Positions 1-59,358 of a DNA stretch of 64,000 nucleotides are shown here, one piece after another. Below the pieces are notes generated by a model. The model searched no databases, was not told where the DNA came from, and saw only the letters and a program-made list of their open reading frames with translations. This DNA comes from Robiginitomaculum sp. (GTDB taxonomy: Bacteria > Pseudomonadota > Alphaproteobacteria > Caulobacterales > Maricaulaceae), in contig WFUF01000007.1 in assembly GCA_015485155.1 (NCBI GenBank), positions 1 through 64,000 of the forward strand, read 5' to 3'. A program made the position numbers and the translations under genes. The stretch's first letter is position 1. Every line of letters begins with the position of its first letter.

Positions 1-235
1 CTAAAAATGCTAAATCTTTATCTGTCGCATTTTTGGCCGCAAAACCCGCGCTCAAGTAGCGAGGCTTGCCGTCGCGGTAGCGCACAAAGGAGCTTCCCAC
101 TTTTGCTAAAAATGCTAAATCTTTATCTGTCGCATTTTTGGCCGCAAAACCGGTTCCCACTTTTGCTAAAAATGCTAAATCTTTATCTGTCGCATTTTTG
201 GCCGCAAAACCGGTTCCCACTTTTGCTAAAAATGC
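1..235. repeat. Palindromic repeat block: three A hairpins, the first with a B module in its loop
   Basis: Three tandem copies of hairpin module A (27-115, 132-175, 192-235) and the tail of a fourth (1-10). Each 44-nt A copy reads, on the plus strand, GCATTTTT, a short bulge, GCAAAA, a loop, TTTTGC, then AAAAATGC, so the outer 8-bp and inner 6-bp arms pair. Copies are separated by a 16-nt spacer. The first copy carries module B (48-83) in its apical loop, with arms GCGCT and AGCGC and an enlarged inner stem. The block starts 3 nt beyond the stop codon of the minus-strand gene that follows. The family resembles palindromic repeats I remember from Rhizobiales genomes; that link is from memory. 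Confidence 0.9.
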
Positions 236-3996: not shown

Positions 3997-5748
3997 CTAA
4001 TGTGCCTGGTCCTGATGCATCCATTTCTTGATAATCGGTGAGATCAGCAACATGAACACCCCTATGCCCATGGCCACATAGGCCACATTGGTATAAACAG
4101 TGACATAAGTAGCCTTGGCCGCAGCCATGTCAGTTAACTGACCGCCAATTGTCTCGGCACCGGTGCCACTGGCGATAATCCCAGCCAGATAATTAGACAG
4201 GCCCGAGAACAAGAACCAGGCTCCCATGGTCATGCCAACGGCACTGGCCGGCGCCATTTTAGTCACCGCAGACAGACCAACCGGAGAGAGCATCAACTCG
4301 CCCATGGTGTGAATCCAGTAAATCAGGAAAATAAACCAAACCAAGACAAGGCCAGTACCAGATAGTGCTATACCACCAACTAATGACAAAAAGCCAAGAC
4401 CTGCAAGGAAAACACCAAAGGCAAATTTGACCGGGGTTGATGGCTCTATTTTACGTTTTGACATCGCCATCCACATCCATGCAAACAATGGCGCAAACAG
4501 CACAATGAAACCGGCGTTTAAGGATTGAAATACCGGCGTTGTTACTAAAAACCCAAATATTTCCCGATCTACAATACGCGCAGTGAACAGGGTAAGCGAC
4601 GAGCCAGCCTGTTCAAACAGGGCCCAAAACGGAATTTGCGCAAGAATAAAATAAATGGCGGCAAACATTCGCTGGCGTTCAATACCAGCCAGCTTAACAA
4701 AAGCGTACCCAACCATGAGCGCAAAGACAGATAGACCCAAAACACCAACAAACCACTCCGGAACCAGATGGGCATGCATCACGGTGAGCATAGCAAAGGC
4801 AATAATACCGATACCGGTCAGGTAACAGGCCCATTCCACATTTATCGGGCCAAATACTTTTTGTTTTAGTTTTTCAGCGCAAGGCGGATCGGCTTTACCC
4901 TCCAACCATGACTGGAACACCAAAAAGGTTATCAGCCCAGCCAACATGCCAATACCAGCCAGACCAAAACCCCAGTTCCAACCCCATTTAATTCCAATAA
5001 TACCAATGGAGACTGCGGAAAGCAGCGAACCAAGATTGATACCCATATAAAAAATCGTAAACCCGGAATCACGCCTTGGATCACCTAGTTCATATAATGA
5101 GCCAACAATGGTCGAGATATTGGCTTTCAAGAAACCAACGCCAGCAATAATCAAAGCCAGTGCCAGATAAAGAATATTTACATATAATGCTTCTTTTTCA
5201 ATCCGGGTTGTATAACTGTCGGTGGCAATCATTTCCGGCAGGCCAACTGCTGCCGGATCAGCGATCACCATATGAGTAGCCCCCTCGCTAAAGCTGATAT
5301 GTGAACGCCCGCTTTCAGCAATTAGAACCTGCCGTGCATCACCACCCCTGCCGTCCAGTGTTATCTGATAATCATTACCTTCAAAGGTAAGATATTCCTT
5401 GGAACCAGAGCCTTCAAACGCCATTAAACCATGACCAAAAACCAGCAATATCGCCCCATAGGTTACAGCTTTGCGCTGGCCTAGGAATTTATCAGCCAAT
5501 GAGCCGCCGATAATCGTCATCACATATACCAAAGCGGTATATGCACCATACATTATTGTCGAGCGCTCATCAGAGAACAAAAAGTGCTGGGTTAAATAAA
5601 GAACCAGCAGGCCGCGCATGCCATAATACGAGAACCGCTCCCACATTTCGGTCAAAAACAAAATGGCCAATCCGCGCGGATGGCCAAAGAATGAAGTATC
5701 CGACAAGCCGGCATTAGATACTTTTACGTTTTTTGTTGCCACAATCAT
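3997..5748 (-). CDS. POT/PTR2 family proton-dependent oligopeptide transporter
   Basis: Inner-membrane symporter taking up di- and tripeptides with protons. It has the family signature ExxERFxYYG as TEMWERFSYYG at residues 33-43 and about 14 membrane segments. Start chosen at the ATG at 5748, which lies next to a GGGGAG; an ATG 18 codons further upstream has no ribosome binding site. About 78 residues (roughly 112-190), rich in charged residues and lacking membrane segments, interrupt the early helices and should form a periplasmic domain. Bacterial POT proteins are usually about 500 residues, so 583 is long because of this insert. It is likely transcribed alone, since a terminator follows the upstream VOC gene. 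Confidence 0.9.
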   Translation of the reverse strand: MIVATKNVKVSNAGLSDTSFFGHPRGLAILFLTEMWERFSYYGMRGLLVLYLTQHFLFSDERSTIMYGAYTALVYVMTIIGGSLADKFLGQRKAVTYGAILLVFGHGLMAFEGSGSKEYLTFEGNDYQITLDGRGGDARQVLIAESGRSHISFSEGATHMVIADPAAVGLPEMIATDSYTTRIEKEALYVNILYLALALIIAGVGFLKANISTIVGSLYELGDPRRDSGFTIFYMGINLGSLLSAVSIGIIGIKWGWNWGFGLAGIGMLAGLITFLVFQSWLEGKADPPCAEKLKQKVFGPINVEWACYLTGIGIIAFAMLTVMHAHLVPEWFVGVLGLSVFALMVGYAFVKLAGIERQRMFAAIYFILAQIPFWALFEQAGSSLTLFTARIVDREIFGFLVTTPVFQSLNAGFIVLFAPLFAWMWMAMSKRKIEPSTPVKFAFGVFLAGLGFLSLVGGIALSGTGLVLVWFIFLIYWIHTMGELMLSPVGLSAVTKMAPASAVGMTMGAWFLFSGLSNYLAGIIASGTGAETIGGQLTDMAAAKATYVTVYTNVAYVAMGIGVFMLLISPIIKKWMHQDQAH

Positions 5749-9607: not shown

Positions 9608-9668
9608 CCCGCGCTCAAGTAGCGAAGCGGTAGCGCAAAAAAACCTTTCCACTTTTGCTTGCAAATGC
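9608..9668. repeat. Solo B module with a degenerate A hairpin remnant
   Basis: A complete B module (9611-9636) has arms GCGCT/AGCGC around an AGTAGCGAAGCGGT core. It is followed by a decayed right half of module A, including CCACTTTTGC. The left A arm is almost gone. The remnant abuts the TAA stop of cca and sits in the ubiA/cca convergent gap. Confidence 0.85.
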
Positions 9669-9669
9669 T

Positions 9670-10926
9670 TTAGCCCCGTCCGCCGCTTTTTCCACCAGAG
9701 CCAAGATTGCCTATTTTAGCGCGCAATTCATCCATGGACAGGGCAAATCCTGATTGAATCCATTCATCTTCCAGCGCCCATAACAAATCGCCCAACTCCT
9801 TGCCAGGAGCATAACCAATATCCATCAGATCCCTAGCAGTAACCGGAAATACCGGGCGTTCCCAGTCATCAGCAAAATCCAGCATATCCTCAATATCACG
9901 CCGATCCCGGCCTTCATATTTGCCCAAGGCAATCTTTGCAGCATCTACATATCCGGATACTACTTTTTGGTACAGGCGTCTGGATACATCCATAAAGTCC
10001 TCGCCGGGTAATACCGGGCCATTATTCGCAAAGGCCATTATCCGCGCCTTTTCGGCACCTGACATTTTAAGCCTGTTACAAATAGCACGGGCTTTGGACG
10101 GATCAATCAATGCCATGAACCGCAATAAAGGATCGATTTTCCATTTCATCTCGGTTTCAGATGCCAGCAATTGAGCCAATTGATCTACATCACGACTGCC
10201 GGGAAAACACTGTTGCAGAACTTCGGCTGTGCGCATCCAGCGCACAGCCTTTAACGGATCAGGGGCAGCCAATAACAGCTTTAACTCTTTCCATATGCGT
10301 TCGGCAGACAGATCTTTAATGCCATCTTTTAGTCGGGCACAGGCAGTAATCGCCGCACGATCAGGACGACCGGAGCCATAATGGGCAAAAAATCTGAAAT
10401 AACGTAAAATCCGCAAATAGTCCTCGCGAATACGATCCTCCGGCTCGCCGATAAATACCACCTCGCGCCTGGTTGCATCCCCGATACCGCCTTGCGGATC
10501 ATATAATCTGCCATCACCATCGCAATAAACAGCATTAAAGCGAAAATCCCGGCGCAAGCTGTCTTCGTCCCAGTCTTCGGAAAACGCAATTACTGCCCGG
10601 CGGCCATCGCTTTGCACGTCTTTGCGCAAAGTGGTTACCTCAAAAGCCGAGCCAGCAATCACCACCGTAAGTGTGCCGTGATCAATTCCGGTGGGAATCA
10701 CCTTGTAGCCGGCATCGCTGGCAATGGACTCAACAGCTTTTGGAAGAAGTTTGGTGGCAATATCAATGTCTTTTACCGGCTCTTCCATAAGGGCGTTACG
10801 CACACAGCCACCCACAAACCGGGTACTGTCAGCCTGTTTCGCATTTAACAAGTTCAAAAGATCCCTTGCCGGCCCATTCTGCAGCCAGGTATTTTTGTTG
10901 GGATCCAGTCGGTCAGGCAGACTCAT
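9670..10926 (-). CDS. cca: CCA tRNA nucleotidyltransferase / poly(A) polymerase family
   Basis: Adds or repairs the 3' CCA end of tRNAs using CTP and ATP. The class II nucleotidyltransferase head carries FVGGCVRNALM near 37-47, the catalytic DIDIA at 54-58 and RRDFRFNA near 126. The RNA-binding signature IREDYLRILRYFRFFAHYG follows near 165. The 418-residue length fits the alphaproteobacterial type. Its ATG shares one base with the stop codon of the DUF6111 gene, making it the last gene of a four-gene operon. Confidence 0.93.
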   Translation of the reverse strand: MSLPDRLDPNKNTWLQNGPARDLLNLLNAKQADSTRFVGGCVRNALMEEPVKDIDIATKLLPKAVESIASDAGYKVIPTGIDHGTLTVVIAGSAFEVTTLRKDVQSDGRRAVIAFSEDWDEDSLRRDFRFNAVYCDGDGRLYDPQGGIGDATRREVVFIGEPEDRIREDYLRILRYFRFFAHYGSGRPDRAAITACARLKDGIKDLSAERIWKELKLLLAAPDPLKAVRWMRTAEVLQQCFPGSRDVDQLAQLLASETEMKWKIDPLLRFMALIDPSKARAICNRLKMSGAEKARIMAFANNGPVLPGEDFMDVSRRLYQKVVSGYVDAAKIALGKYEGRDRRDIEDMLDFADDWERPVFPVTARDLMDIGYAPGKELGDLLWALEDEWIQSGFALSMDELRAKIGNLGSGGKSGGRG

Positions 10927-17087: not shown

Positions 17088-19144
17088 GCAGTTCACTGGA
17101 ATTTTCACCGTTGCTGCCACTAACATGGATCGTGATACTGTGCGCCCTTGGTCTGCTTGGTTCCTTGTGGGCAGGTTGGCACCGCCCCTTATGGCTGGTT
17201 TTAAGGATCGGCCTTATTATCGGCCTTGTCCTGTTTGCCTCCGGCATTCAAAAAATCGAAAGTAAAATAGAAACATTAAGCGATATTGCCCTTGTGCTGG
17301 TTGATGACACTCTGAGTATGAATATGGCAAAGCGCGCCGAAATACGCGACAACAAATTATCTCAATTGCGCGAACTGGCCAAAGCTGATCCCGACCTCGA
17401 CTTGCTGGAAGTACCAATTACCGACAGCCCGGATGGCACCCGCCTGTTTGAGGCCATGACTTCGGGGCTTGCACAAATACCTTCGGCAAGGCTGGCCGGA
17501 ATTGTTGCTATTACTGATGGTATTATTCACGATACCGCCCCTGCCATAACAGCCAAAGCTCCTGTGCACAGCCTGATCATTGGTGATCCATCACAAAAGG
17601 ATCGCAGTTTAACCATTATCGAGGCCCCAAAATTTGGAATTGTTGGCGAACAGGTGCAATTCAAAATCCGGGTAGATGAATTTGGCGATGATAAAACCGG
17701 AAGTGCCAAAATTGTATTGCGGCTGGCTGGTGAACCGGAGCTAAGAACCCGGGTACAGACCGGTATTGATGTCAATGTACAAATGCCCTTAAGCCGGCGC
17801 GGATCAAATCTGGTGGAGATACAGGTCGAAGCCGCTGAGCAGGAATTGACATTATTGAACAATAAGGTGGCCGTCGAAGTAACCGGAGTACGCGAGCGCT
17901 TGCGGGTCTTGCTGGTATCGGGGGAGCCTTATCCCGGGGTAAGAGCGTGGCGTAATTTGCTAAAATCAGACCCGGCTGTGGATCTGGTTCATTTTACAAT
18001 TTTACGACCACCTACCAAACGCGACTTAACACCATTAAACGAAATGGCACTCATTGCATTTCCAACCCGCGAGCTATTCGTGGAAAAACTTAAAAGTTTT
18101 GATCTGATCATTTTTGACCGCTATACACGGCGCGGTGTTTTGCCCCTGTTATATCTGCAAAATGTGACCCAATACGTAGAAGAAGGCGGAGCACTAATGG
18201 TGGCAGCAGGCCCACCATTTGCCGGCAATGGATCTCTCGCAAGAACTTTTCTGGCCGGATTATTGCCTGCACGCCCCGATGGAAACATTCACACAGAACC
18301 CTTTAGGGCCAAAGGCACTGATATTGGAGCAAGGCACCCGGTAACTGCACCGCTTTTGGCACAACAGGAAAAATGGGGGCGCTGGGGCCGGGTAATCGGA
18401 GTTACCGGGGTAAGGGGTGAAACCGTCCTGTCTGCAAGTGAAGATAAACCACTATTGATTCTGGATCGTGTGGGGGCGGGCCGGGTGGCTTTGCTGCTTA
18501 GTGATCAGGCATGGCTGTGGTCCAGAGGTTTTGAAGGCGGCGGCCCACAATATGAATTATACCGCCGTCTGGCTCACTGGCTGATGAAAGAGCCGGAATT
18601 GGAAGAAGAATCCTTGCAAGGAGAAATCCGTGATGGGCAATTATACGTTCGCTTGCGCACATTGCAGGACAAACCGCCACCAATAGAGGTGACAGGCACA
18701 CAAGGCAAAACATGGAGCCTTGAAACAAAACAAGTATCCCCAGGATTATACAGTGCCAGCATGAATGTGCCTGAGTCTGAAGGTTTGCTGACACTGAGCG
18801 CCGGTGAATTATTGGCTGTTGCTGCGCAAGGACGGCTGAACCCCCCTGAATTTGCAAGACTGCAACCGGTAAAAAAAGCTTTGGAGCCGTTAAACAAGCA
18901 AACCAGGGGAGGTGCGTTTTTTGTAAAAAACCTGCAATCCGACCTGCAAATCAGACGCACACGGCCACAAGACCGTCAGGCCGGCAGGAACTGGTTTGGC
19001 CTGCAGCAAAACAAGTTTCACATTAAGACTCAAATAAAGAAGCGACCCCTGATTGACCCAAGGATCGCTTTGATATTCTTGTTACTGCTTACAGGAAGCA
19101 TGTGGTGGCGCGAAAGCAAAACCCAGGATCAGGTTCAATCCTGA
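17084..19144 (+). CDS. Large membrane protein of the MoxR operon, VWA/glutamine amidotransferase-like
   Basis: A 686-residue protein with N-terminal helices at about 13-31 and 37-54 and a C-terminal helix near 666-682. After the first pair comes a VWA-like strand, IALVLVDDTLSMN (68-80), where the canonical DxSxS is lost. Around 340-380 the FDLIIFDRYTRRGVLPLLYL region followed by VEEGGALMVAAGP resembles a class I glutamine amidotransferase-like fold without an evident catalytic cysteine. It overlaps the preceding gene by 4 nt and ends inside a terminator hairpin. Function unknown. Confidence 0.82.
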   Translation: MSSSLEFSPLLPLTWIVILCALGLLGSLWAGWHRPLWLVLRIGLIIGLVLFASGIQKIESKIETLSDIALVLVDDTLSMNMAKRAEIRDNKLSQLRELAKADPDLDLLEVPITDSPDGTRLFEAMTSGLAQIPSARLAGIVAITDGIIHDTAPAITAKAPVHSLIIGDPSQKDRSLTIIEAPKFGIVGEQVQFKIRVDEFGDDKTGSAKIVLRLAGEPELRTRVQTGIDVNVQMPLSRRGSNLVEIQVEAAEQELTLLNNKVAVEVTGVRERLRVLLVSGEPYPGVRAWRNLLKSDPAVDLVHFTILRPPTKRDLTPLNEMALIAFPTRELFVEKLKSFDLIIFDRYTRRGVLPLLYLQNVTQYVEEGGALMVAAGPPFAGNGSLARTFLAGLLPARPDGNIHTEPFRAKGTDIGARHPVTAPLLAQQEKWGRWGRVIGVTGVRGETVLSASEDKPLLILDRVGAGRVALLLSDQAWLWSRGFEGGGPQYELYRRLAHWLMKEPELEEESLQGEIRDGQLYVRLRTLQDKPPPIEVTGTQGKTWSLETKQVSPGLYSASMNVPESEGLLTLSAGELLAVAAQGRLNPPEFARLQPVKKALEPLNKQTRGGAFFVKNLQSDLQIRRTRPQDRQAGRNWFGLQQNKFHIKTQIKKRPLIDPRIALIFLLLLTGSMWWRESKTQDQVQS

Positions 19145-23073: not shown

Positions 23074-23116
23074 TTCTTCAGTTCAAAATGAACGAGAATA
23101 CAATCTCTTATCTCTC

Positions 23117-23327
23117 GCATTTTTGGCCGTAAAACCCGTCCTCAAGTAGCGAAGCGGTAGGACAAACAAAGAGTCCTCAAGTAGCGAAGCGGTAGGACAA
23201 TTAAAGACTCCTCAAGTAGCCGCTAGGCGATAGGACTTAAAAGACCTTCCCACTTTTGCTAAAAATGCAAATCCTTGTTTATCGCATTTTTGGCCGCAAA
23301 ACCGGTACCCACTTTTGCTAAAAATGC
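23117..23327. repeat. A/B repeat block with three B modules in one A loop
   Basis: One A hairpin (23117-23268) is expanded by three tandem B modules in its loop: 23138-23163, 23173-23198 and a decayed 23208-23236. The first two have identical 26-nt sequence with arms GTCCT/AGGAC. A plain A hairpin follows (23284-23327) and abuts the TAG stop of petC. Confidence 0.9.
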
Positions 23328-23328
23328 T

Positions 23329-24126
23329 CTAATGCTTAACATCCCGCCATACAGCCCGGTATGAGCCATAAAGCAGCAAGGCAAGCAGGAACAGATAGAT
23401 AAGAACTACCCAGCCAGTGCGCTTGCGCTGTTCCATTTTTGGATCAGCAGCCCAGGTCAGGAACTCCACAACGTCTTTTGCCATTTGATCAACGCTTGCC
23501 TCTGTGCCATCAGTATATTCCACCCGGCCTTCGGTCAAAGGAGCGCCCATGGCAATCTGGTTACCACCGGAAAAATACGGGTTATAGCTCATGCCAGGGG
23601 ATAATTTCATACCCTCTGGCGGATCCTCATAACCAGTAAGCAGTGAATATAGATAGTTTGAACCATCAGCACGGGCTCTGGTTATCAGCGACAAGTCCGG
23701 AGGAAACGCACCCATATTAGAGGCCTTGGCCGCCATTTCATTGGCATATGGGTTTGGTATCTTGTCTGCGGTTATTCCAGGGCGCTCAAACATATCGCCA
23801 CTTTCATCTGGCCCATCAATGATTGTGAACATCTTGGCAATTGCCTTGATAACAGGATTATCATTGGGGTTTGGGTATTCAGGGTCATAAAACGGAGCCC
23901 CTTTATCTCCCAGATTATAAAAGGCCACATATTTTAAGGAGTGACAGGCGGCGCAAACCTCCTGATAAACCTGAAATCCACGCTGAGCCGCAGCCTTGTC
24001 ATAGGTTCCAAACATGCCCTCAAAATGCCAGTCTTGGGTTTTGTTTTTGGCACCAGCACCAGCGGCAAATACGGCGCCGGCAGAAAAACTTGCAATAATC
24101 GCCAGGCTTACAATTCGCTTTAACAT
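23329..24126 (-). CDS. petC: Cytochrome c1 of the bc1 complex
   Basis: Haem-binding subunit that passes electrons from the Rieske protein to cytochrome c in the periplasm. Signal peptide 1-21, haem motif CAACH at 58-62, the Met ligand in the LSPGMSYNPYF region near 190, and a C-terminal anchor helix at about 240-258 are visible. The 265-residue gene is separate from cytochrome b, unlike the fused fbcH of Bradyrhizobium. It starts 2 nt after petB. Its stop is joined directly to the A/B repeat block. Confidence 0.96.
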   Translation of the reverse strand: MLKRIVSLAIIASFSAGAVFAAGAGAKNKTQDWHFEGMFGTYDKAAAQRGFQVYQEVCAACHSLKYVAFYNLGDKGAPFYDPEYPNPNDNPVIKAIAKMFTIIDGPDESGDMFERPGITADKIPNPYANEMAAKASNMGAFPPDLSLITRARADGSNYLYSLLTGYEDPPEGMKLSPGMSYNPYFSGGNQIAMGAPLTEGRVEYTDGTEASVDQMAKDVVEFLTWAADPKMEQRKRTGWVVLIYLFLLALLLYGSYRAVWRDVKH

Positions 24127-54642: not shown

Positions 54643-56058
54643 TTACTGGAATTGCATCACGATGGTTTGTGTTTCGCCAGCTGTGATCACAATATCGCGG
54701 CTGTACTCTTGACCGCCATACATGCCCTTGATGCGGTATTTGCCAGCTGGCAGATCAAAGCTAGGTGAAACCCTGTAGGAATAGGTCAAATATTGGTCGG
54801 CGACTTCGCCGTCCTTCATGGCAAAAATCTTCCATTCCCTGCCAACAGGGTTTTGTGAAGTGGCACTACCCCGCCCGCTCAGCAATAATCTTCCGGTATT
54901 AAAAACAATGGTAACATCCGTAGTTTCATCGACCTTCACCTCCACATCCTTAAACTTGGTGGCCTCACCGTACATGCCCTTGATGCGGTATTTGCCAGCT
55001 GGCAGATCAAAGCTAGGTGAAACCCTGTAGGAATAGGTCAAATATTGGTCGGCGACTTCGCCGTCCTTCATGGCAAAAATCTTCCATTCCCTGCCAACAG
55101 GGTTTTGTGATTGCGGCCCAGCGCGACCCTGAACCCGCAAGGTTCCTGTACCAAACAAAATAGTGACCTCGGTAACGTCATCGTCTTTTACTTCCACATC
55201 CTGATAGACGACGGCTTCGCCATGAACTCCCTTAATTTGGTATTTTCCTGCAGGCAGTGAAAAATCAGCCATGGCTGAGTATGAATATGTATAATATTTG
55301 TCTGCCAGCTTTCCGTCTTGAAAGGCATAGACCTCCCAGCTCACACCATCGGTAAGCACTTCGGAAGTTTTACGAACTTTGCCACGCAATTTCAGGTTAA
55401 ATTCTTTGGTCACCGCTTTTGAAACAACTTGCAAAGCAGTAGTTAATTCGGCGGCATTTGATGCGGAAAAATACTGGCCACCGGTATTATCGGCAATGCA
55501 CTGCAAAGCTTTGGATTCTTCTTTCGACAGATCAAACCCGACAACATGGGTGGTAAAATCAACCCCAAGTTTTTCCAACTCGCTGGCCACAGCACACGGG
55601 TCGGCATTACAGGTTTCCAAGCCATCGGTAACCAGAATTACTGTCGCCTTGTTTTCCTCGTACTTCAGTGTCTGCGCTGCCTGCTTAACCGCAGCAGAAA
55701 GCGGGGTTTTACCTTTCGGGTTTAGGGCCTCTACCGCCGCAGTAAACGCTTTGGCGTCCACCTGACCGGGCGCGATGATCTGTTCAATATCCGAGCAATC
55801 GCCTTTGCGCCTATGACCATAGACAATTAGCCCCAATTCGTTTTGTGGCTGCCAAGTTGCAAGCATTGTTTGCAACACGGATCTGGAAATAGTGATTTTT
55901 GGCTCGCCGTCAATTTGCCCCCACATGCTGCCTGAAGCATCAAACACCAATATGGTTTTTGATGGCTCATTTTCGGAATCATTTTGTGCAAATGACGGCG
56001 CCGCTCCGAAAATTACCAACAAGAAAATACAGATTAGTTTACCGATAGATACGCGCAT
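54643..56058 (-). CDS. Secreted VWA-domain protein with three C-terminal beta repeats
   Basis: A 471-residue exported protein. After a signal peptide (1-24) comes a von Willebrand A domain with an intact metal site: DASGS at 40-44, a conserved Thr in GKTPLSAA and VTDGLETC. Three beta repeats of about 84 residues follow (roughly 215-300, 300-385, 385-471), each with W-(K/E)-(I/V)-(F/Y)-A-x-(K/Q)-DG and LPAGKY(R/Q)IKG. Repeats 2 and 3 share a stretch of about 47 identical residues. It lies between the permease and ureidopropionase genes, with no known link to pyrimidine use. Adhesion or envelope function is inference. Confidence 0.85.
   Translation of the reverse strand: MRVSIGKLICIFLLVIFGAAPSFAQNDSENEPSKTILVFDASGSMWGQIDGEPKITISRSVLQTMLATWQPQNELGLIVYGHRRKGDCSDIEQIIAPGQVDAKAFTAAVEALNPKGKTPLSAAVKQAAQTLKYEENKATVILVTDGLETCNADPCAVASELEKLGVDFTTHVVGFDLSKEESKALQCIADNTGGQYFSASNAAELTTALQVVSKAVTKEFNLKLRGKVRKTSEVLTDGVSWEVYAFQDGKLADKYYTYSYSAMADFSLPAGKYQIKGVHGEAVVYQDVEVKDDDVTEVTILFGTGTLRVQGRAGPQSQNPVGREWKIFAMKDGEVADQYLTYSYRVSPSFDLPAGKYRIKGMYGEATKFKDVEVKVDETTDVTIVFNTGRLLLSGRGSATSQNPVGREWKIFAMKDGEVADQYLTYSYRVSPSFDLPAGKYRIKGMYGGQEYSRDIVITAGETQTIVMQFQ
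54719..55110 (-). repeat. 140-bp exact direct repeat inside the VWA gene
   Basis: 54719-54858 and 54971-55110 are identical over 140 bp, with a period of 252 bp (84 codons, in frame). The third protein repeat upstream in the gene is clearly diverged at the DNA level. Confidence 0.95.
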
Positions 56059-57780: not shown

Positions 57781-57860
57781 GCATTTTTGAGCCGTAAAAC
57801 CCGTCCTCAAGCAGCGAAGCGATAGGACAGATAAAAACTTCCCACTTTTGCTAAAAATGC
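57781..57860. repeat. A hairpin with one B module in its loop
   Basis: A complete A hairpin contains a B module (57803-57828, arms GTCCT/AGGAC) in its loop. The tail of another A-like unit (GGCTAAAATGC) lies at 57755-57765. The right end abuts the TAG stop of mmsA. Confidence 0.9.
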
Positions 57861-57861
57861 T

Positions 57862-59358
57862 CTAGTCCATGCTTGGAAATGTGAATTGTGCGCCGGAGCG
57901 GATACCGGTCGGCCAGCGCGAGGTTACGGTTTTCAGGCGCGTATAAAAATGCACCGCTTCCGGCCCATAAATCCCGTGGGCACCAAAGCTGGAGCGCTTC
58001 CAGCCGCCAAAGCTGTGGGTGGCCACGGGTACCGGGATCGGCACATTTACCCCGACCATGCCGACCTTGATACGCTTGGCAAAGTCACGGGCCGCATCAC
58101 CATCTCGGGTGAAAATCGCCGTCCCATTACCGTATTCATGGGTGTTGATCAGCTTTACAGCTTCGGCATAATCTTTGGCCCGCAATACGCTTAATACCGG
58201 CCCGAAAATCTCGGTTTTATAGACGCTCATATCCGCCGTGACATTGTCCAGCAAGGTTCCACCCAACCAAAAACCATCCTCATAGCCTTGCAATTTCAAG
58301 CCCCGGCCATCAACCACCACTTTGGCCCCTTCTTTTTCTCCCGCCGCAATGCAATCGCTGATGCGCTGTTTGGCTTCATTGGTAATAATTGGCCCCATCT
58401 CTGATTGCGGATCACTTGCCGGGCCAATTTTAAGCGCTGCCACTTGTGGGGCCAGTTTTTCCACCAACCTGTCGGCGGTTTCTTCGCCGATCGGTACTGC
58501 CACCGATATCGCCATGCAGCGTTCACCAGCCGAACCAAAGCCTGCACCCATCAATGCGTCCACTGCTTGGGTCAAGTCAGCATCAGGCATGATAATCATA
58601 TGGTTCTTGGCGCCGCCCAAAGCCTGCACCCGCTTTCCCGAAGCACAGCCGCGAGTATAGACATATTCAGCTATTGGGGTGGAGCCAACAAAGCTAACCG
58701 CCTGTATTTCCTGATGATCCAGTACCGCATCCACCGCTGCTTTTCCGCCGTGAACAATATTCAGGACTCCATCCGGCAAGCCAGCCTCGCGGAACAAGTC
58801 AAAGATCAAATTGGCAGATGACGGATCACGCTCGGAGGGTTTTAAGACAAATGTATTACCACATGCCAGAGCCATTGGGATCATCCACAACGGCACCATG
58901 GACGGAAAATTAAACGGGGTGATGCCAGCGACCACGCCTAAGGGCTGACGCTCGGCAAAACTGTCAATACCGGGACCAACATCACGGGAGAAATCGCCTT
59001 GTAAATGTGCGGCAATCCCGGATGCATATTCCACCACTTCAAGAGCGCGGGTAACCTCGCCCAGCGCATCATCATGGGTTTTGCCATGCTCAAGCGAAAT
59101 AGTTTTGGCAATTTCATCACGGCGGCGGTTCATTACTTCGCGCAGCGCAAACATCACGCGAGCGCGCTTGGTCGGGGGAGTATCAGACCAACTTTCAAAG
59201 GCTTGTTTTGCAGCTCGTACTGCTGCGTCAATTTCCGCCGCCGCGCCCAGCACCACTTCTGCAATTTGCTCGCCGGTAGCAGGGTTGAAAACCGGCTGGC
59301 TGCGCCCTGTGCTTCCGATGGTCTCCTGGTCGCCAATAAGGTGTTTGATGGTTTTCAA
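57862..59358 (-). CDS. mmsA: CoA-acylating (methyl)malonate-semialdehyde dehydrogenase
   Basis: Converts malonate or methylmalonate semialdehyde to acetyl-CoA or propionyl-CoA with NAD. Aldehyde dehydrogenase fold with GITPFNFPSMVPLWM near 145, FVGSTP near 223 and the nucleophile Cys281 in SAGERCMAIS. The 498 residues and ERCM motif fit the MmsA type. The start is a TTG at 59358 with AGGAA 6 nt upstream. It is 9 nt after the aminotransferase gene and is the last step of the pathway encoded here. Confidence 0.93.
   Translation of the reverse strand: MKTIKHLIGDQETIGSTGRSQPVFNPATGEQIAEVVLGAAAEIDAAVRAAKQAFESWSDTPPTKRARVMFALREVMNRRRDEIAKTISLEHGKTHDDALGEVTRALEVVEYASGIAAHLQGDFSRDVGPGIDSFAERQPLGVVAGITPFNFPSMVPLWMIPMALACGNTFVLKPSERDPSSANLIFDLFREAGLPDGVLNIVHGGKAAVDAVLDHQEIQAVSFVGSTPIAEYVYTRGCASGKRVQALGGAKNHMIIMPDADLTQAVDALMGAGFGSAGERCMAISVAVPIGEETADRLVEKLAPQVAALKIGPASDPQSEMGPIITNEAKQRISDCIAAGEKEGAKVVVDGRGLKLQGYEDGFWLGGTLLDNVTADMSVYKTEIFGPVLSVLRAKDYAEAVKLINTHEYGNGTAIFTRDGDAARDFAKRIKVGMVGVNVPIPVPVATHSFGGWKRSSFGAHGIYGPEAVHFYTRLKTVTSRWPTGIRSGAQFTFPSMD

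Follow-up and report, generated by a model that had tools for sequence, protein, structure and literature searches.

The start of this contig raises the question of how one short palindrome, here called module B, came to lie in the loop of another, module A. The window, that is, the whole stretch of 64,000 nucleotides that was analysed, belongs to a Robiginitomaculum genome (G000) of 2.39 Mb in 27 contigs that is 99.99% complete. Module A is a 44-nt palindrome, GCATTTTTGGCCGCAAAACC-GG-TTCCCACTTTTGCTAAAAATGC. Module B is a hairpin of 26–36 nt, in which a conserved 20-nt core, CTCAAGYAGCGAAGCGGTAG, is combined with a stem of three base pairs that is nearly free in sequence and yet complementary. 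Its commonest form is GTC-CTCAAGTAGCGAAGCGGTAG-GAC; an A-rich spacer comes next, and tandem copies repeat about every 33–36 nt. The tip exchanges among GCGAAGC, CCGCTAGGCGG, and GCGAGGCTTGCCGTCGC. An earlier note, made from the sequence alone, had proposed that B is a small mobile or amplifying unit that uses A as its site, or else that the two form a combined RNA structure.

Every copy located by that note was recovered (Table 1): the three plain A palindromes, the filled ones at 27–115 (one long-tip B), 23117–23268 (three B), and 57781–57860 (one B), and the B near 9608, which has a decayed A right arm beside it and lacks the left arm. At up to three mismatches, the A right arm was matched six times in the window, against 0.02 matches expected by chance, and the B core four times, against 0.00 expected, although the 20-nt core pattern misses two B with other tips. 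The first 119 nt of the window are shared with the end of contig C8 (L030), and the outer flanks of both contig ends map to a single locus (L164) of the sister species; the array at 1–235 was therefore probably cut by the assembly, with the break inside the array. Elsewhere in the window, at 54716–55110, are two direct repeats of 143 nt, 99% identical, whose starts are 252 nt apart.

Table 1. Copies of modules A and B in the window, with their arms, stems, and neighboring stop codons
Feature	Positions	Strand	Remarks
A right arm, tail only, cut by contig start	1..10	+	Window base 1 is base 1 of contig C7
A left arm	27..46	+	
B, long-tip variant, inside A loop	48..83	+	Stem GCGCT/AGCGC
A right arm	96..115	+	0 mismatches
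Plain A palindrome	132..175	+	
Plain A palindrome	192..235	+	Stop codon of minus-strand ORF 239–1351 at 239–241, 3 nt further
B without A left arm	9611..9636	+	Stem GCGCT/AGCGC; five B at the same site in G006
Decayed A right arm	9646..9668	+	Stop codon of ORF 9670–10926 (-) 1 nt further
Probable remnant of left partner palindrome (P1), upstream of A	23077..23098	.	By eye
A left arm	23117..23136	+	1 mismatch
B copy 1	23138..23163	+	Stem GTCCT/AGGAC
B copy 2	23173..23198	+	Junction 23171–23175 is GAGTC (GANTC)
B copy 3, tip CCGCTAGGCGA	23208..23236	+	Stem CTCCT/AGGAC, outer pair broken; junction 23206–23210 is GACTC
A right arm	23249..23268	+	
Plain A, GGTACCC loop variant	23284..23327	+	Stop codon of ORF 23329–24126 (-) 1 nt further
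A left arm, GAGCC variant	57781..57801	+	
B	57803..57828	+	Stem GTCCT/AGGAC
A right arm	57841..57860	+	Stop codon of ORF 57862–59358 (-) 1 nt further

The nested arrangement is common throughout the genome. At up to three mismatches, the A right arm was counted 119 times and the B core 105 times in G000, while the reversed patterns, used as controls over the whole genome, gave none; the copies placed in the site-by-site reading are fewer than these totals, some A and a few B being left unplaced. The 82 stretches that were parsed fell into 83 clusters comprising 78 A units filled with B, 45 plain ones, and four others. The parser rests on mismatch thresholds and scored L070 as plain despite a decayed B, so that the plain units number 45 or 46. 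In total, 207 B copies were parsed, one to eight per filled A, and 170 of them belong to units that end in an A right arm; the other 37 include arrays cut by contig ends, arrays that run into a ACAAAAATGG tail, and a few copies standing alone. By eye, several of the arrays with this tail then lead to tRNA-like sequence. The statement that the A arms are intact around B held for about half of the filled units, as both arms are present in 43 of the 78 at the threshold used, while 35 retain only the right arm, 12 of these with a remnant of the left.

The proposal of a single insertion point was supported. Loop spacing is identical among the 45 plain units, and in the filled copies B is located in the loop between AAAACC and TTCCCAC; its point of entry (CC^GG) is constant. 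The exact junction is clear in few copies, however, since the sequence that follows B on its right is GCTTCCC rather than GGTTCCC in most filled A; L059 and its sister locus keep GGTACCC. Within loci, B copies may be nearly identical, as are the six tandem copies of L050, which indicates local duplication. The multiplication of B within arrays thus looks like local tandem amplification and not like repeated insertion.

Module A alone is much more widespread than the nested form. Among the matches listed, its right arm occurs in Maricaulis, Marinicauda, Brucella, Pseudochrobactrum, Sphingobium, Sphingomonas, Rhodobacter, Devosia, and others. By script classification, 46 of 49 matches in other alphaproteobacteria were plain, three were neither plain nor filled, and none contained B; in G009 and G014, two relatives of the window genome, the corresponding figures were 20, 10, and none of 30. 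Because the plain loop, AAAACC^GGTTCCCAC, is found across the class, we take it to be the ancestral form. One of the ten matches that were neither (L302 in G009, at about 1460–1520) carries another hairpin, CCCGTGTCGAAGCACGG (28 nt), in its A loop, and A loops may thus accept hairpins other than B. Module A also tends to sit beside stop codons. A long minus-strand ORF was found within 200 nt in 55 of 68 right flanks, and its stop lies 0–6 nt from A in 44 of the 55 and exactly 1 nt away in 28; no separate control accompanies these counts, the argument being the peak at one exact offset. At the four window sites the gaps are 3, 1, 1, and 1 nt.

The relatives named here are identified by the coincidence of match places: G009 with the Robiginitomaculum metagenome-assembled genome (MAG) NVWT02 (NORP30), G014 with JAESTZ01 (NORP327), and G006 (77% complete), the sister species of the window genome, with JALSYJ01 (S012). 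Robiginitomaculum MAGs are the nearest named relatives that bear the repeats, the kinship being that of the same genus. In the counts that follow, the order is the database's own grouping; under NCBI, Robiginitomaculum is placed in the Maricaulales.

Module B, in turn, was found without A, in agreement with the suggestion that it is a unit of its own. In a survey of 299 evenly drawn genomes of the order, G000 among them, an 18-mer of the core with at most one mismatch was matched in 27 genomes and 6 of 54 genera, to be read against the reversed 18-mer, which has matches in 7 of the 299, so that single matches need care. With the 20-mer at up to three mismatches, B was present in all ten that were searched of the 17 other genus members, in 1–28 copies (controls, 0–2 each), although G015, with a single match, does not stand out from its control. 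The exact core also occurs in 89 viral stretches of IMG/VR, as opposed to none for the A right arm, and B-like matches were found in ten plasmid records, all from alphaproteobacterial genera. The hosts were Roseibium, Pseudosulfitobacter, Cereibacter, Rhodovulum, Asticcacaulis, Acuticoccus (a weak match, E 0.2), and a Rhodobacteraceae; in the six records examined, whose gene table is incomplete, no gene lay under the match. Searches of phage records gave no useful match, but only three from Enterobacter phages with an E value of 0.3 and 74% identity.

Reading by eye of 48 loci and 93 non-redundant B sites outside the window species and its sister revealed none in an A loop. B is thus not generally sited in A, and the expectation that B would mostly lie in A loops was borne out in G000 (170 of 207 copies) and failed for the B family overall. 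A broader rule, that B sits in the loops of palindromes in general, found no support in a flank-pairing test, as 11 of 93 sites scored at least 16 against about six expected, which is not significant. By eye, B does lie in the loop of CCGG..TGACG palindromes at L266, L270, and L275 and of TCCCGGA..TCCGGGA palindromes at L350, L352, L353, and L358.

Several other settings of B were observed in these genomes. Mu-like prophages can be rich in it, with seven of the eight matches of G011 (C4:122.9–142.7 kb, L379, L380) and seven of the 28 of G003 (C41, L381, L382), several of them at gene junctions. At L253–L260 and L279–L285, read by eye in other genomes, B forms mosaics with the palindromic modules GGTTCGAG..CTAACCGGAACC and GGCGCTTCTTCGCGCC; some of these loci adjoin tRNA-like sequence, and the tail ACAAAAATGG recurs there. 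A recurrent variant with the core CTCATATAGCG, the stems GTGC/GCAC, and a spacer with GAATC was seen at L359–L363 of G003.

The stem of B covaries. Among 78 viral copies (80 of the 89 IMG/VR stretches entered the stem and orientation statistics), pairs 1–3 are Watson–Crick in 78, 73, and 71, against shuffled means of 45.8, 27.8, and 43.5, and among 119 copies from other genomes of the order in 112, 109, and 98, against 57.8, 46.1, and 85.3. In G000 the pairing is present but relaxed (78, 70, and 59 of 95, against 62.5, 58.1, and 45.4). From pair 4 outward it is near background, with viral pairs 7 and 8 raised (35 against 18.7 and 24 against 17.2); the reversed-core control (n = 85) showed background pairing, with pair 4 mildly raised (34 against 24.8).

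Orthologous sites of the two species were then compared for occupancy. Flank matches of any kind were available for 51 of the 83 G000 clusters. The G000/G006 table had 20 rows with both flanks, of which two were dropped, L071, whose mate is truncated where a contig stops, and a spurious row of L035 with one arm only; because the G006 sites were drawn from matches to A or B, sites without the element in G006 are under-sampled. In the 18 usable pairs, the flanks gave 36 alignments, mostly 92–99% identical (lowest 84%), while the number of B and/or A copies differs in 16 pairs and that of B in 11. The occupancy of A by B therefore does vary between the two species at the same sites. At window site 9611, for example, one B in G000 corresponds to five in G006, and at L005 a single plain A in G000 corresponds to A(BBB)-A(B) in G006 (L139).

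Plain A also exists in the relatives, in one case at an orthologous gene end: beside the gene to the right of L042 (67% identity across 776 nt; the gene to the left differs), G000 has five B and G009 a plain A (L288). Plain and filled A at the same place were seen only in this comparison and in the one G000/G006 pair. Set beside MITEs, which have terminal inverted repeats and a target-site duplication, B is itself one short inverted repeat, and the latter pair gives CC^GG without obvious duplication by eye. Among more distant relatives, the element is absent at the sites of L026 and L118, G009 has a plain A in opposite orientation at L074, and at site 9608 there is a degenerate A-like hairpin in G009 and none in G014.

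The reading that we favor, and hold with moderate confidence, is that B is an independent DNA-level repeat that entered A loops in the lineage of the two Robiginitomaculum species and was then amplified locally. B is independent of A, its stem covaries, its junction with A is constant, occupancy differs between species, and tandem copies are nearly identical. By this account, B would be a hairpin repeat of Alphaproteobacteria carried by chromosomes, prophages, and plasmids; it would have entered the center (CC^GG) of the A apical loop before the two species separated, and local tandem duplication together with exchange between copies would have produced fast-changing arrays of one to eight B per filled A. 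The first entries of B into A would have been true insertions, probably guided by an enzyme that recognizes the B core, perhaps as single-stranded DNA, and phages and plasmids presumably spread B. A RAYT/IS200 mobilizer acting in cis was considered and ruled against, as the Y1_Tnp domain (PF01797) is absent from both high-copy genomes, G000 and G006; the domain occurs in 10 of the 41 that were searched, and within the genus its presence does not, by eye, track the number of B. The maintenance of the B stem everywhere could also reflect function rather than selfish spread.

A different history is conceivable, in which B entered one A only once and the composite A(B) then spread as one block to many sites. 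The order within clusters speaks for such copying: where both kinds occur together, plain A occupy the right end and filled A precede them on the left, with no violation in 31 clusters of G000 and 19 of G006, and the first A from the left is of the filled kind in 68 of 70 clusters in G000 (one of the two exceptions has a decayed B) and 41 of 41 in G006. This polarity is not predicted by random insertion into A arrays, although tandem growth makes the units non-independent. The sequence identity of non-orthologous loci over as much as about 120 nt points the same way, some of these stretches being contig-end duplicates. We nevertheless regard spread of the composite as unlikely, in view of the plain and filled A at the same site (L005/L139 and L042/L288) and of the occurrence of B alone elsewhere. 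In G000, moreover, the filled and plain A within a locus have the same left-arm variant in 38% of 21 pairs, against 20% after shuffling (p 0.007), although the same test was not significant in G006 (15 pairs, p 0.14).

The combined RNA structure, with A(B) as a multi-arm RNA in the 3' UTR of the adjoining gene that acts as stabilizer, terminator, or protein-binding site, would suit the abutment of the A right end on stop codons and the covarying B stems, but it found little support and appears very improbable. Outside G000, B has no clear strand preference, being sense to codirectional neighbors in 11 cases and antisense in nine (131 contexts, with crude ORF calls) and, inside predicted ORFs, sense in 40 and antisense in 32 (31 and 18 among the viral contexts), which favors a DNA-level unit without proving it. 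Folding z-scores are inconsistent, from -2.7 to 0.0, 35 of the 78 filled units have lost the left arm of A, and stem pairing is relaxed in G000. The preferred reading, insertion of B followed by local amplification, also has to be set against the possibility that the arrays are kept because most B–B junctions form GANTC and so cluster sites for the methyltransferase CcrM beside genes. Of the B–B junctions, 88 of 115 in G000 and 75 of 97 in G006 contain GANTC. At the A/G-rich junctions the G, A, T, and C of this site are conserved in 93, 100, 100, and 99 of 102 in G000 and in 75, 77, 77, and 77 of 77 in G006, and N is C in 50, G in 48, and T in four (G000), even though C breaks a stem pair, or C in 45 and G in 32 (G006). 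The arrays have 7.6 GANTC per kb, against 1.0 in the window and 1.3 in the flanks, and G000 encodes a CcrM-like methyltransferase with a RAMA domain (best PDB match CcrM 6pbd, E 6e-171). A site inside a repeat unit, however, raises the density trivially; base composition alone leads to 3.7 per kb, and AGNCT, TTNAA, and GCNGC are likewise enriched over the flanks. Two founder spacers would yield the same pattern of N, GANTC itself served to align the junctions that have an extra C, which is slightly circular, and the ACCCG-type junctions (13 and 20), which lack the A/G-rich spacer, were left out of the base count. Retention for this purpose therefore seems improbable to us, and the conservation of GANTC at B–B junctions may be due to selection or to two founder spacers.

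A bolder extension of the preferred reading, insertion and local amplification, can be offered only tentatively. B may be among the smallest mobile DNA units of bacteria, at about 26 nt, with the loop and not the stem as its signal. An enzyme, perhaps encoded by phages or plasmids, would move it as single-stranded DNA, the centers of other palindromes would be among its targets, and in two species the resulting arrays would be dense clusters of CcrM sites next to gene ends. In any case, B is a clean, countable case of tiny repeats that spread and amplify without a visible transposase. Its fixed core and compensated free stem point to a specific recognizer, and the retention of GANTC at the junctions suggests that the repeat is connected with methylation of DNA in the cell cycle. 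Because related species have differing arrays at the same gene ends, gain, loss, and order are directly testable.

Homology searches gave no family for B. In Rfam, the window was matched at the gathering score by two tmRNA models only, and six B-bearing loci were matched at E<=1 by tRNA only. The literature searched gave no paper on the B sequence; 13-mers of B occur in two papers, both with unrelated abstracts. As far as these searches go, B is a hairpin repeat without an earlier label.

For module A, a comparison is at hand in the CIR elements of Caulobacter and Brucella (Chen & Shapiro 2003, via PMC2229807), which the excerpted text describes as intergenic, about 110 bp long, and composed of two inverted repeats, a linker, and GANTC. 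The layout of A with a left partner palindrome (P1) and a linker resembles that of CIR, and a plain A occurs in Brucella pseudintermedia. The P1–linker–A arrangement was seen by eye at several loci, with 8 of 47 matching a crude pattern. GANTC is irregular in the A region of other alphaproteobacteria, however, with 9 of 47 cases; in G000 it was found in 16 of 71 cases within 60 nt to the left of an array (34 of 415 at random positions) and in 42 of 71 arrays, there largely from B junctions. Nested B-like arrays are not mentioned in the excerpted parts of PMC2229807. A with its left partner may be near the CIR elements; Bru-RS and RIME may resemble it in sequence as well.

The nesting of palindromes is in itself not new, since REP elements inserted in other palindromes are described for A. 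variabilis, T. roseum, and H. neapolitanus in the part of PMC3733652 available. The GTAG- and CGTC-tagged REPs of the same excerpt are, like B, small dispersed palindromes. B differs from them, as they are described there, by keeping its core while freeing the sequence of its stem and by having no unpaired terminal tag, GTAG lying inside the core; the Y1 transposase (PF01797) that goes with REP/BIME and RAYT was found in neither G000 nor G006. The Rickettsia palindromic elements are palindromic repeats of alphaproteobacteria that have been reported inside ORFs (excerpts of PMC3733652 and PMC2229807). To go by this description, B is like them in its occurrence within predicted ORFs (49 of 71 viral contexts and 23 of 60 others, by crude ORF calls). 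In the prophage ORFs of L381 at 5282–5746 and 18479–19054 (-), the predicted frame runs through B as SSNSEAV or ATASLLEH, and these peptides are reminiscent of the in-frame Rickettsia elements. The latter are about 100–150 bp long, and B, far shorter, shares with them the palindromic form and the capacity to lie in reading frames.
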